From: Labilibaculum euxinicum
GTDB lineage: Bacteria > Bacteroidota > Bacteroidia > Bacteroidales > Marinifilaceae
Length of the DNA stretch: 64,000 nucleotides
Assembly: GCF_009795715.1 (NCBI RefSeq)
Contig: NZ_WTCR01000004.1
Span: 186,001 to 250,000, forward strand
Direction of reading: 5' to 3'
The translations under genes and the position numbers were made by a program. This document shows positions 29,653 through 35,984 of the stretch, in pieces. How positions within the stretch are numbered: position 1 is the first letter of the stretch; every line of letters begins with the position of its first letter. A model generated the notes under the pieces. The model was given only the letters and a program-made list of their open reading frames with translations, searched no databases and was not told where the DNA came from.

Positions 29653-29682
29653 AAAAAAAAATTCTCCCTGTCTTTGGAAGAA
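29653..29682 (-). terminator. Attenuator terminator in the leuA leader
   Basis: On the minus strand TTCTTCC (29682-29676) pairs with GGGAGAA, with one G-T pair, followed by eight T's. Its 5' arm TCTTCC can instead pair with GGAAGA (29728-29723) inside the end of the leader frame, giving an alternative antiterminator. Confidence 0.75.
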
Positions 29683-29714
29683 CCTTGCATGATAACCTTA
29701 CATTAGTTAGAATA

Positions 29715-29795
29715 TTATACAGTCTTCCTTGTTGATTCTCCAATAATGAGATCAATAATCAGGTTAAAACCAATAAGGATACTATCATAAATCAT
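29715..29795 (-). CDS. leuA leader peptide (26 residues, Leu/Ile-rich)
   Basis: ATG at 29795, stop at 29715. The core reads SILIGFNLIIDLII: 11 of 26 residues are Ile, Leu or Val, with three leucines, just before the attenuator terminator. This is the expected build of a ribosome-stalling leader: when charged Leu/Ile tRNA is short the ribosome stalls, freeing the GGAAGA segment to pair with the terminator's first arm. It is too short for ordinary gene calling. No strong Shine-Dalgarno, as is usual in this phylum. Confidence 0.7.
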   Translation of the reverse strand: MIYDSILIGFNLIIDLIIGESTRKTV

Positions 29796-33658: not shown

Positions 33659-35494
33659 TTATAATTGTCTAATTGCTCCTTTATCTGCCGAAGACACAAG
33701 TCTTGAATAGGCTTGCAGAGCTTTTGAAACCTGACGGTTACGTCCTCGCGGCACAAATGCTTCCTGACCAAATGCTTCTTCGTCTTTTCTTCTTTGTGCT
33801 AACTCTTCATCAGAAATACAGACATTGATGCTTCTTTTAGGGATACTGATTTCAATTTTATCACCATTCTGAATTAAAGCAATTGCTCCTCCGGCTCCTG
33901 CCTCAGGAGACACATGACCGATTGATAATCCGGAAGTTCCACCAGAAAAACGTCCATCGGTAATCAAAGCACATTTTGCTCCCAATCCCATTGATTTCAG
34001 GTAAGAGGTTGGATACAGCATTTCCTGCATTCCGGGTCCGCCAGCTGGTCCTTCGTAACGAATCACAACCACATCGCCAGCATTAATCTGTTTTGTAAGA
34101 ATGGCTTCGCAAGCATCTTTCTGTGAATAATATACTTTTGCCGTACCAGTAAAATTGAAAACTGACGAATCTACTCCTGCCGTTTTTACAATGCTCCCGT
34201 TTGGAGCAATGTTTCCAAACAAAACGGCCAATCCACCATCTTGAGTGTAAGCATTTTCCATGCTTCGGATACAACCGGCTTCTCTGTCTTTATCCAGCTC
34301 CTTAAAAGCAGTATTTTGAGAAGCAAACGTTAAGTTCCTACCCGATTGACCTGGTGCAGCATGATATATTTCCAGTGCTTTAGCAGTCAACTTTTCAGAA
34401 AAAAGATCATTCAATTCCAAAGCTTCTTTTAGGTTGGCAGAGTCAACACGATACACATCAGTATTTAAAAGATTTCCACGATCCAATTCTGCAAGTATAC
34501 TCATGATTCCTCCCGCCCTGTTCACATCTTCGATGTAATATTTAGGCGAATTTGGAGCTACTTTACACAAATTTGGTGTTTTACGAGACAGTTCATCCAT
34601 ATCTTTCATGGTGAAATCAACTTCGGCTTCATGGGCAATTGCCAACAAATGAAGCACAGTGTTTGTTGATCCTCCCATTGCAATATCCAATGTCATTGCA
34701 TTTCTAAAAGCATCCACTGTGGCAATTGATCTAGGTAAAACCCGATCGTCACCCTCTTTGTAGTATTTATTCGTAATATCTACAATGCATTGCGCCGCAT
34801 CAGTAAACAAATCTTTACGAAGTTTATGAGTAGCCAGTAAAGTTCCATTTCCTGCCAAAGCCAAACCTAATGCTTCATTCAAACAGTTCATAGAATTGGC
34901 GGTGAACATTCCCGAACAGCTGCCACAAGTAGGACAAGCTGATTCTTCAATTTCCTGCATGCGCTCATCGCTGACACTATCGTCACCGGCTTTTACCATG
35001 GCATCCACCAAATCAAGCTTCTCGCCTTTCGACTCACCGGCTTCCATTGGTCCACCCGAAACAAAAACAGTAGGGATATTTAATCGCATGGCAGCCATCA
35101 TCATTCCAGGAGTAATTTTATCACAGTTGGAAATACAGATCATGGCATCAACCTTGTGAGCATTGCAAACATATTCAACACTATCGGCAATTACGTCGCG
35201 TGAAGGCAGAGAGTAGAGCATTCCGTCGTGACCCATTGCTATTCCATCGTCAATAGCTATCGTATTAAATTCAGCAGCAAAATAGCCGGCCTTTTCAATT
35301 TCCGTCTTCACCATTTGCCCTACATTTTGCAAGTGCACATGTCCCGGTACAAATTGGCTGAAAGAGTTCACCACCGCAATAACCGGCTTTCCGAACATCT
35401 CTTCTTTCATTCCGTTTGCCCGCCACAAGCTTCTCGCTCCGGCCATTCTTCGGCCTTGTGTGGTCTGATCACTGCGTAATTTATTTTTATACAT
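33659..35494 (-). CDS. ilvD: Dihydroxy-acid dehydratase
   Basis: 611 residues of the IlvD/Edd family. The iron-sulfur cysteines lie in [11 protein letters not shown] and [19 protein letters not shown], and the substrate region has SGGPMEAGE and [10 protein letters not shown]. It converts dihydroxy acids to the 2-oxo acid precursors of Val, Ile and Leu. It is the first structural gene of the ilvDBNC unit and is preceded by two tandem leader-peptide/terminator modules (35543-35842), so the whole unit is likely controlled by charged Ile/Val tRNA. Confidence 0.95.
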
Positions 35495-35542: not shown

Positions 35543-35572
35543 AAAAAAAACGCCCTTTCGTTGGAAAGAGCG
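35543..35572 (-). terminator. Attenuator terminator 2 of the ilvD leader
   Basis: CGCTCTTTC pairs with GAAAGGGCG (nine pairs, one G-T) across CAAC, followed by eight T's. The arm CTTTCC (35568-35563) is also complementary to GGAAAG (35618-35613) in the second leader frame. Confidence 0.85.
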
Positions 35573-35596
35573 CTAATAATTTCGTTTTATAGAAAG

Positions 35597-35686
35597 TTAT
35601 TGTCTGTGCACGCTTTCCTTCCTTGTCATTCTAATAATGACAATTGAAATAATAATGACGATAATGACTACCTTAAATGATAACAT
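35597..35686 (-). CDS. ilv leader peptide 2 (29 residues, Ile/Val-rich)
   Basis: ATG at 35686, stop at 35597. The core VVIIVIIISIVII is almost pure Ile/Val; 14 of 29 residues are branched-chain. It ends in a basic tail (RMTRKES) whose codons contain the GGAAAG segment that can pair with the following terminator. It shares the pattern IIIS-(I)VIIR with leader 1, pointing to duplication of the whole module. It lies downstream of terminator 1, so it is transcribed only when the first gate is passed. Confidence 0.78.
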   Translation of the reverse strand: MLSFKVVIIVIIISIVIIRMTRKESVHRQ

Positions 35687-35700
35687 ACAATAATCGGATC

Positions 35701-35730
35701 AAAAAAAAAGCCCCTTCGTTTTGAAGAGGC
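35701..35730 (-). terminator. Attenuator terminator 1 of the ilvD leader
   Basis: GCCTCTTC pairs with GAAGGGGC across AAAAC, followed by nine T's. Its first arm GCCTC (35730-35726) can pair with GAGGC (35781-35777) at the end of the first leader frame. A second small hairpin, AAATTAAA CGAA TTTAATTT, lies between leader and terminator. Confidence 0.85.
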
Positions 35731-35773
35731 CTTAGATATTTTGTAAAATTAAATTCGTTTAATTTAAATATGC

Positions 35774-35842
35774 TCAGCCTCGAATCGTGTCCAGAAGGAC
35801 GCGAATAATGACGCTAATAATAATTACTGAATTAAATTGCAT
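35774..35842 (-). CDS. ilv leader peptide 1 (22 residues, Ile/Val/Leu-rich)
   Basis: ATG at 35842, stop at 35774. The core reads VIIISVIIRVLL, and 11 of 22 residues are branched-chain. The frame contains a small hairpin (GTCC TTCT GGAC, 35800-35789) that could act as the pause structure, and GAGGC near its stop that can pair with the terminator arm. It starts about 100 bases after the predicted transcription start. Confidence 0.78.
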   Translation of the reverse strand: MQFNSVIIISVIIRVLLDTIRG

Positions 35843-35951
35843 ATTCTTTTTGTTGATTCGAACCTCTAAAGATTCATAATTTGTTTTTAATTTTGTCAAC
35901 GAACATCTACAATCTCTCTTTCGATCTGATTACGTTGACAAATCTATGCGA

Positions 35952-35984
35952 CAAATATAAGAGGAAAAATCCCTTATTTGCAAA
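35952..35984 (-). promoter_or_regulatory. Bacteroidota-type promoter of the ilv unit
   Basis: On the minus strand TTTG (35984-35981) is followed after 21 bases by TATATTTG (35959-35952), an exact -33/-7 pair at the expected spacing. RNA would start near 35945, leaving about 100 bases before leader 1. A second -7-like box, TAGATTTG (35946-35939), overlaps the start region. Confidence 0.7.

Follow-up and report, generated by a model that had tools for sequence, protein, structure and literature searches.

Enterobacterial ilv and leu operons with classical attenuators (ilvGMEDA, ilvBN and leuABCD) carry one leader peptide and one terminator each. The window analyzed here, a 64,000-nucleotide stretch of the Labilibaculum euxinicum genome, raises the question of whether an ilvD gene can stand behind two such units, and if so, whether both of them work and where the second one came from.

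On the minus strand, the elements are arranged in the order promoter, leader 1, terminator 1, leader 2, terminator 2 and ilvD (Table 1), with the promoter, leaders and terminators lying exactly where the initial annotation had placed them. The encoded IlvD is 98% identical to that of Labilibaculum sp. K2S. Beyond ilvC, the gene cluster continues with a further leader and terminator, followed by leuA-leuC-leuD, a CimA-like enzyme that scores below the cut-off of that family, leuB and ilvA. The start of leader 1 is an ATG inside a longer frame of the open reading frame list that begins with TTG. To our knowledge, initiation of such leaders cannot be judged by the Shine-Dalgarno sequence in Bacteroidota. 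The promoter is of the Bacteroidota primary-sigma type rather than the sigma-70 type, the consensus of the former being given in the available part of its description as TTTG near -33 and TAnnTTTG at -7 (PMC7366714). A second TAnnTTTG (TAGATTTG) is found at 35946-35939, just past that of the promoter, and a scan for this motif yielded no further copy from 35939 to 35480, so there is none between the modules. Terminators 1 and 2 are the sole terminator-like sites in 1,101 bases on both strands (0.4 ± 0.8 in shuffled sequences). The complementarity of GAGGC to GCCTC and of GGAAAG to CTTTCC, on which the initial proposal of an antitermination switch had been built, is present. The inverted repeat downstream of the promoter, the hairpin inside leader 1 and the attenuator before leuA are additions to the original set of features.

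Table 1. Features of the ilvD leader region and its surroundings, in window coordinates.
Feature	Position	Strand	Details
Upstream block TTGGGAATCGTA	35999-35988	-	adjoins the -33 box on its upstream side; hardly varies among the 22 Marinifilaceae sequences
Promoter, Bacteroidota primary-sigma type	35952-35984	-	TTTG 35984-35981, 21-nt spacer, TATATTTG 35959-35952
10-bp inverted repeat TTTGTCAACG ... CGTTGACAAA	35892-35942	-	inner AATC/GATT; between promoter and leader 1
Leader peptide 1, MQFNSVIIISVIIRVLLDTIRG	35774-35842	-	control codons VIIISVIIRVLL at 35827-35792
Short hairpin inside leader 1	35786-35803	-	CGcGTCC-TTCT-GGACaCG; 22-sequence alignment
Antiterminator strand 1 (segment 2, module 1)	35776-35781	-	GAGGCT; duplex energies and helices
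Intrinsic terminator 1 (segments 3:4)	35701-35733	-	11-bp stem 35733-35707, T tract 35709-35701 (9 T)
Leader peptide 2, MLSFKVVIIVIIISIVIIRMTRKESVHRQ	35597-35686	-	control codons VVIIVIIISIVII at 35671-35633
Antiterminator strand 2 (segment 2, module 2)	35608-35618	-	GGAAAGCGTGC; duplex energies and helices
Intrinsic terminator 2 (segments 3:4)	35543-35574	-	11-bp stem 35574-35549, T tract 35550-35543 (8 T)
ilvD	33659-35494	-	first gene of cluster ilvD-ilvB-ilvN-ilvC
Attenuator before leuA	29658-29795	-	leader MIYDSILIGFNLIIDLIIGESTRKTV 29795-29715, terminator 29686-29658

In order to see how much of this architecture is kept, we collected 29 Marinifilaceae copies (the window, L001-L013 and fifteen further matches), which reduced to 22 distinct sequences, and aligned them. 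The leader starts, the Ile/Val cores and the terminators of both modules are retained in all 22, and both leader frames are rich in codons for the end products of the operon in every one of them. Conservation of the Ile/Val codons and of the stems in relatives had been chosen beforehand as a check on the idea of two attenuators, and the idea withstood it. The terminator stems are nearly perfectly preserved: 99.6% of the alignment cells are paired in terminator 1, where no pair has changed on both sides, and 99.2% in terminator 2, where two pairs have done so, in 8 and 2 sequences. For all named helices together, the number of cells changed on both sides (11 versus 3.7 in shuffled alignments) and the covariation score (0.078 versus 0.066) exceed those of all 500 shuffles. 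The number of pairs changed on both sides is 3 versus 1.7, with 61 of the 500 shuffles as high, and the 16 further pair types are fewer than the 18.3 of the shuffles. Covariation across the two modules is thin.

When counted in fixed columns, the antiterminators of the 22 sequences gave no covariation measure above the shuffles. In antiterminator 2, the pairing register moves by one base from one genus to another, so that such a count finds no covariation there (84.2% of the cells are paired versus 84.5% in shuffles). For the same reason, the antiterminators were judged by duplex energies and longest helices. Antiterminator 2 and terminator 2 change together, as the combinations GGAAAG/CTTTCC, GGGAAG/CTTCCC and GAGAAG/CTTCTC all pair; two module-2 copies are down to 5 bp of antiterminator. 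Antiterminator 1 is short (5-9 bp). Its z-score relative to shuffles is modest in Labilibaculum, Ancylomarina and their close relatives, lying between -1.0 and -2.6, and amounts to -2.8 to -3.4 in Marinifilum. That of antiterminator 2 extends from -0.1 (L192) and -0.8 (L001, for which a short arm was found) down to -5.7. A one-nucleotide indel between genera shifts the frame of leader 1 just past its core, resulting in peptides that end in DTIRG or in GHES/GHRT, and spares both the control codons and the GAGG/GGGG segment. Such a pattern fits selection on the codons and the RNA pairing, and not on the end of the peptide.

The short hairpin inside leader 1 retains its GUC/GAC pairs in 22 of 22 sequences, whereas its outer pairs vary (82.5% of the cells are paired overall), and it is possibly an RNA polymerase pause site and a candidate for the 1:2 hairpin of its module. 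A strong CCTCCTC/GAGGAG hairpin located at Leu-Leu-Val-Glu-Glu codons within the leader frame, in leader 1 of L078 and in leader 2 of L203, recalls the short hairpin of leader 1 in the window.

The anatomy, the conservation and the pairing potential described so far, as well as the switch position and the codon bias described below, are read directly from the sequence. They suggest that transcription from a single promoter meets two ribosome-mediated attenuators, each complete in itself, one after the other before it reaches ilvD. A ribosome finishing the short frame would cover segment 2, so that segments 3 and 4 form the terminator. A ribosome stalled on the Ile/Val codons (and on Leu codons too in most copies of leader 1) would leave segment 2 available for pairing with segment 3, in which case RNA polymerase would read on. 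As the polymerase would have to pass both gates, read-through would be the product of two probabilities, which would result in a lower leak and a steeper response to a shortage of charged tRNA-Ile or tRNA-Val. It is from the features of the leader that we infer translation of the two frames, stalling, termination in cells and the multiplicative response.

The switch was then analyzed as a function of the ribosome position. The RNA downstream of the ribosome was folded codon by codon, before the last terminator arm exists, on the assumption that the 3' edge of the ribosome is 12 nt beyond the position at which the A-site codon begins. While the ribosome occupies the last core codon, the mean 2:3 pairing is 0.59 in module 1, 0.87 in module 2 and 0.72 in 122 modules from elsewhere; once it has reached the stop codon, the corresponding values are 0.07, 0.06 and 0.19. 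Under the assumed footprint edge, a stall frees segment 2 in silico and a ribosome at the stop codon masks it. The antiterminator is lost just past the last Ile/Leu/Val codon: relative to the core end, the drop in pairing is located between codons -1 and +3 in 17 of 21 copies of module 1 (one of the 22 leaders was left out for its length), in 22 of 22 copies of module 2 and in 115 of the 121 usable modules elsewhere, while a random codon would place it there in 17-23% of cases. When 120 modules from other loci exchange their stop-codon distances at random, the fraction of drops near the core end goes down from 95% to a mean of 62% (with a maximum of 74% in 2000 permutations).

An antiterminator that is mutually exclusive with the terminator arm is present in both modules and is weaker in module 1, whose 2:3 pairing in the window peaks at about 0.55-0.6 even before arm 4 exists. 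At equilibrium, the probability of the complete terminator never falls below 0.89 at any ribosome position in 11 of the 16 modules listed, both window modules being among them. Since the complete terminator wins at equilibrium, the 2:3 helix must form first and persist. That it forms first is the usual assumption for classical attenuators.

Insulation of the two switches from each other was evaluated in 29 tandem loci (22 Marinifilaceae and 7 others). Segment 2 prefers its own segment 3 over cross pairing in 23 of the 29 loci for module 1 and in 28 of the 29 for module 2. In the remaining 6 loci, the better partner for segment 2 of module 1 is segment 3 of the second module. Four of these loci come from Ancylomarina and its relatives (L005, L007, L008 and L096); the others are L090 and L192/G169, the last of which is also the sole exception for module 2. 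Taken together, conservation, pairing and ribosome-position folding back the initial claim of two serial attenuators, each with its own leader peptide, and we consider it very probable that the two modules function as ribosome-mediated attenuators that act one after the other.

The choice of synonymous codons in the leaders is unusual. GTC, which constitutes 3% of the 360 Val codons in eleven window genes, accounts for 90% of 58 Val codons in the 12-codon cores of Marinifilaceae leader 1 and for 77% of 81 in those of leader 2, where the counts come from 22 related sequences and are not independent events. In other words, the rarest Val codon of the window genes is the commonest in the leader cores. 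The window itself has GTC in two of the three Val codons of leader 1 and in three of the four of leader 2, and the leaders of L014-L080 lean the same way (45% GTC versus 16% in ilvD genes). The Leu codons of the leader-1 cores are all CTN, whereas TTA and TTG together make up 64% of Leu codons in the window genes. The genome (39 contigs) contains 70 tRNA matches, of which 69 are in stretches that were read for their anticodons (one partial match being without a call), and one 85-nt match is outside of this reading. All three tRNA-Val genes found (stretches L271 and L272) have a UAC anticodon, with no GAC among the tRNA-Val genes read in this assembly. Hence, GTC seems to have no exactly matching tRNA, and it may be a sensitive stall codon.

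Several other explanations of this leader have to be weighed. One of the modules alone could regulate, with the other being a constitutive or relic terminator that is accompanied by an incidental peptide. The weaker pairing of antiterminator 1 would fit this, as would the fact that most relatives with a detected module have only one. However, a relic should decay first in its codons and in segment 2, whereas the starts, Ile/Val cores and terminators are kept in both modules without exception and the switch is near the core end in both, which makes this explanation improbable. We give still less weight to parallel transcripts, in which a second promoter inside module 1 would feed module 2 alone: a conserved promoter-like block precedes module 1, and the region between the modules is free of TAnnTTTG, although the promoter scan covered this and sigma-70-like types only and alternative sigma factors exist in Bacteroidota, as stated in the available part of PMC7366714. 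The conserved inverted repeat before leader 1 might, in turn, be taken as a sign that the terminators are controlled by a riboswitch, a T-box or a protein and that the peptides are incidental. An Rfam search of 12 kb with E up to 1 returned no T-box or riboswitch and three sub-threshold matches. The only match within the ilvD leader was Phe_leader, at 27.9 bits against a cut-off of 55, and at the gathering level nine related loci gave nothing but a tRNA. As the codon bias and the switch position point to translation, control of this kind is slightly less probable again than a second promoter. Least probable of all is that the short frames encode functional small (membrane) peptides. Their hydrophobic cores and conserved start codons are what one would expect of such peptides, but the peptide ends vary freely among relatives, and the C-termini are frame-shifted between genera while the RNA pairing stays.

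A further possibility is a refinement of serial attenuation and is compatible with it. The cores of leader 1 mostly end in V-L-L or V-L-I, whereas those of leader 2 are almost free of Leu (6 Leu codons among the 22 sequences), so leader 1 might sense Ile, Val and Leu and leader 2 only Ile and Val. A shortage of Leu would then open the first gate only, giving the operon a separate Leu input. The core of leader 1 in L006 has no Leu codon, which means that a Leu channel is not strictly conserved, and we find it rather unlikely that the two gates answer to different signals in this way.

With two serial attenuators as the preferred reading, the next question is how widespread they are. We surveyed ilvD loci from named records, taking the best 80 of 569, together with 105 upstream regions from 247 genomes that had been drawn evenly from the order and of which 110 gave a match. 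Of these 185 regions, 184 had at least 150 nt of upstream sequence and 181 were distinct. A module was defined as a terminator that is preceded by an Ile/Leu/Val-rich short frame, the threshold for a leader being 7 Ile/Leu/Val of 12, and in the survey it had to be located within 480 nt of the gene. For terminators preceded by such a frame, the background amounts to 14 matches in 1.55 Mb (both strands of the 80 loci, with the ilvD leaders left out). Ten of them are copies of the leuA leader and four are chance-like, and no two are less than 400 nt apart.

The 181 ilvD upstream regions comprise 113 with a single module, 20 with a tandem and 48 without a detected module, figures that describe the sample and are not independent species counts since the two survey sources overlap in part. 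Among the 48 are seven records whose labels name other phyla, as well as some leader frames without a recognized terminator. Thirteen of the 20 tandems belong to Marinifilaceae and seven are found elsewhere: L030, L031 (Sunxiuqinia dokdonensis), L078, L153/G226, L187/G241, L192/G169 and L203/G056. This tally includes one removal and two additions made by hand, L078 and L187/G241, in which leader 1 has 6 Ile/Leu/Val of 12 and is below the threshold. Leader 1 of L203/G056 has no ATG and was counted with a TTG start. Two candidates were dropped from the tandem list, L107/G186 because its first "module" is more than 480 nt from the gene and L130/G277 because its first "leader" is a 44-residue hydrophobic frame.

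In the family as defined by the genome collection, 22 of the 34 relatives searched have this IlvD. All 15 relatives with an IlvD of at least 83% identity have the tandem leader, whereas of the seven with 62-69% identity (L256-L261 and L177), five have one module near the gene and two have none. The tandem state therefore seems to be confined to one branch of the family. Extra DNA matches in the relatives L098, L099 (two) and L097 (one) are not accompanied by such a leader. A sample of 20 ilvD upstream regions from outside the order contained two single Ile/Val modules (L228 and L233, both at divergent ilvD genes) and no tandem. Judging from these sequences, double switches appear to recur in several other Bacteroidales lineages, while most relatives with a module have one. 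In a quickly built IlvD tree with 96 rows, 21 of them tandem, the label has to change 7 times, compared to a mean of 19.2 when shuffled, and the supported branches force at least 4 of these changes; the placement of G169 is unsure. It may be that serial gates for the same signal are a recurrent ilv design of Bacteroidales that has more than one origin (at least 4 and up to 7 label changes, gains or losses), in which the gates multiply to give a low leak and a steep response with no regulatory protein, and in which the GTC skew would sharpen the stall. We put this at slightly below an even chance.

The pattern shared by the two leader cores had initially been taken as a sign that one module is a duplicate of the other. 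A comparison with at most 17 single modules, in which the best single module beat the locus's own module 2 in 11 of 11 loci and the median one did so in 4 of 11 (0 of 5 in Marinifilaceae), was too small and was redone with 104. Among the 104 single modules, which come from other loci, 43 are more similar to module 1 of the window than its module 2 is. Hence, a local duplication is not supported there. The same count is 34, 10, 37 and 44 for L004, L005, L009 and L091, and 23, 72, 90, 66, 32 and 27 for L030, L031, L078, L153, L187 and L192, respectively. In L203/G056, only 2 of the 104 single modules are closer to module 1 than its own module 2 is, and it is in this lineage alone that duplication is plausible. 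The similarity in L005 gives a hint of one, and an old duplication event in the tandem loci is conceivable.

Other conserved elements accompany the two modules. The inverted repeat between the promoter and leader 1 is paired in 99.5% of the cells of the 22 sequences. Substitutions in it affect one side of a pair at a time, never both, and leave a G-U pair in place, save for one broken cell. It folds better than shuffled sequences (z of -3.5 in the window, -1.8 in L006 and -2.4 in L091). The covariance model of this repeat (R1) has 12 strong matches (E <1e-18) in 12 of 40 genomes, including that of the window, all of them at the ilvD leader, and 8 weak ones (E 0.16-1) away from it. The idea of a reusable RNA element was dropped as strong matches are confined to the ilvD leader. 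The repeat might act in the leader RNA, as a 5' stem-loop, or in the DNA, as an operator. The block upstream of the -33 box is a possible regulator site. Together with the ATTTG that follows, it has one exact match in the genome, at ilvD, and three at 2 mismatches versus one in a reversed control; two of the 2-mismatch sites were inspected and had no similar leader. Further downstream, the core of the leader before leuA contains Ile and Leu codons and no Val codon, and similar leaders occupy the corresponding position in 10 of 13 Marinifilaceae loci.

The ilvD leader resembles the enterobacterial ilv and leu leaders in having a leader peptide rich in end-product residues, a segment 2 at the end of the frame, a 2:3 versus 3:4 switch and unusual synonymous codons among the control codons. 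It differs from them in having two complete modules, a Bacteroidota-type promoter and no match to an Rfam leader family above the cut-offs. Single modules of this group might already be on record in a survey of attenuation in bacteria (Lopatovskaya et al. 2010, cited in PMC4833913). Tandem T-boxes, which are known to exist, and tandem riboswitches also place two sensors that terminate transcription one behind the other ahead of a single gene. The latter are exemplified by metE of B. clausii, which responds to SAM plus B12 (cited in the accessible part of PMC3641672). Unlike the leader described here, such systems sense the metabolite or the tRNA by RNA directly, without a translating ribosome.

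The initial annotation knew of no earlier description of this arrangement. This needs to be qualified, since tandem leader attenuators as such are in print. As far as the accessible text goes, the mgtCBR leader of Salmonella contains tandem attenuators that act independently of each other, respond to ATP and proline in an additive manner, have structures unlike intrinsic terminators and belong to a virulence/Mg2+ operon, and its authors note that there is "normally, a single attenuator" for nutrient-biosynthesis genes (Lee and Groisman 2012, PMC3641672). Judging by the same text, the ilvD leader shares with it two short frames in one leader, each with its own switch, which is deduced here from sequence. 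It departs from it in that both leaders are rich in Ile/Val, the same amino-acid family, with only Leu being different, and in that two intrinsic terminators stand in series before a biosynthetic operon. The nearest precedent for serial gates on one signal, going by the available part of its description, is streptococcal mefA/msrD, where two ribosome-mediated attenuators on one transcript both answer macrolides as a "double-lock" (PMC10314930). The second one uses an intrinsic terminator, is located downstream of mefA and regulates msrD alone, and the stall is caused by a drug in the ribosome tunnel and depends on peptide residues, not on rare codons. Both systems would have one transcript meeting two ribosome-mediated attenuators for one signal. 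In the window, however, both modules precede ilvD with no gene in between, and the signal would be tRNA charging. From what that text describes, the leader before leuA is closer to the mefA/msrD layout than the ilvD pair is.

Within the phylum, the literature searched offers, in the portions available, general remarks only: leader-peptide attenuation is suggested for amino-acid operons of Flavobacterium psychrophilum (PMC9723704), and short open reading frames of B. thetaiotaomicron are described as "reminiscent of leader peptides" (PMC7366714). The same general mechanism is proposed there, whereas those portions mention neither a tandem nor an ilvD case. The ilvD motif of Veillonella, which belongs to another phylum, is likewise a structured leader before ilvD and is followed by a terminator in some cases, but it is a weak riboswitch candidate for which the accessible part of the report describes no leader peptide (PMC8632094). 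No tandem leader-peptide attenuator of an amino-acid operon was found among the literature listed, a set to which subscription journals are mostly external. Ribosome-mediated attenuation itself is known. What would be new, and what stands of the initial claim so far as the available texts of the mgtCBR and mefA/msrD papers go, is the placement of two putative complete leader-peptide modules in series before an amino-acid biosynthetic operon, as neither of those systems is such a leader.

If the gates act serially on one signal, the ilvD leader would represent a natural multiplication of two RNA switches that produces a steep or very tight response from a graded input. The single-module relatives are ready natural controls, and the leader offers a comparative system for ribosome-mediated attenuation in Bacteroidota, in which the GTC bias provides a testable link between the tRNA repertoire and attenuator design.
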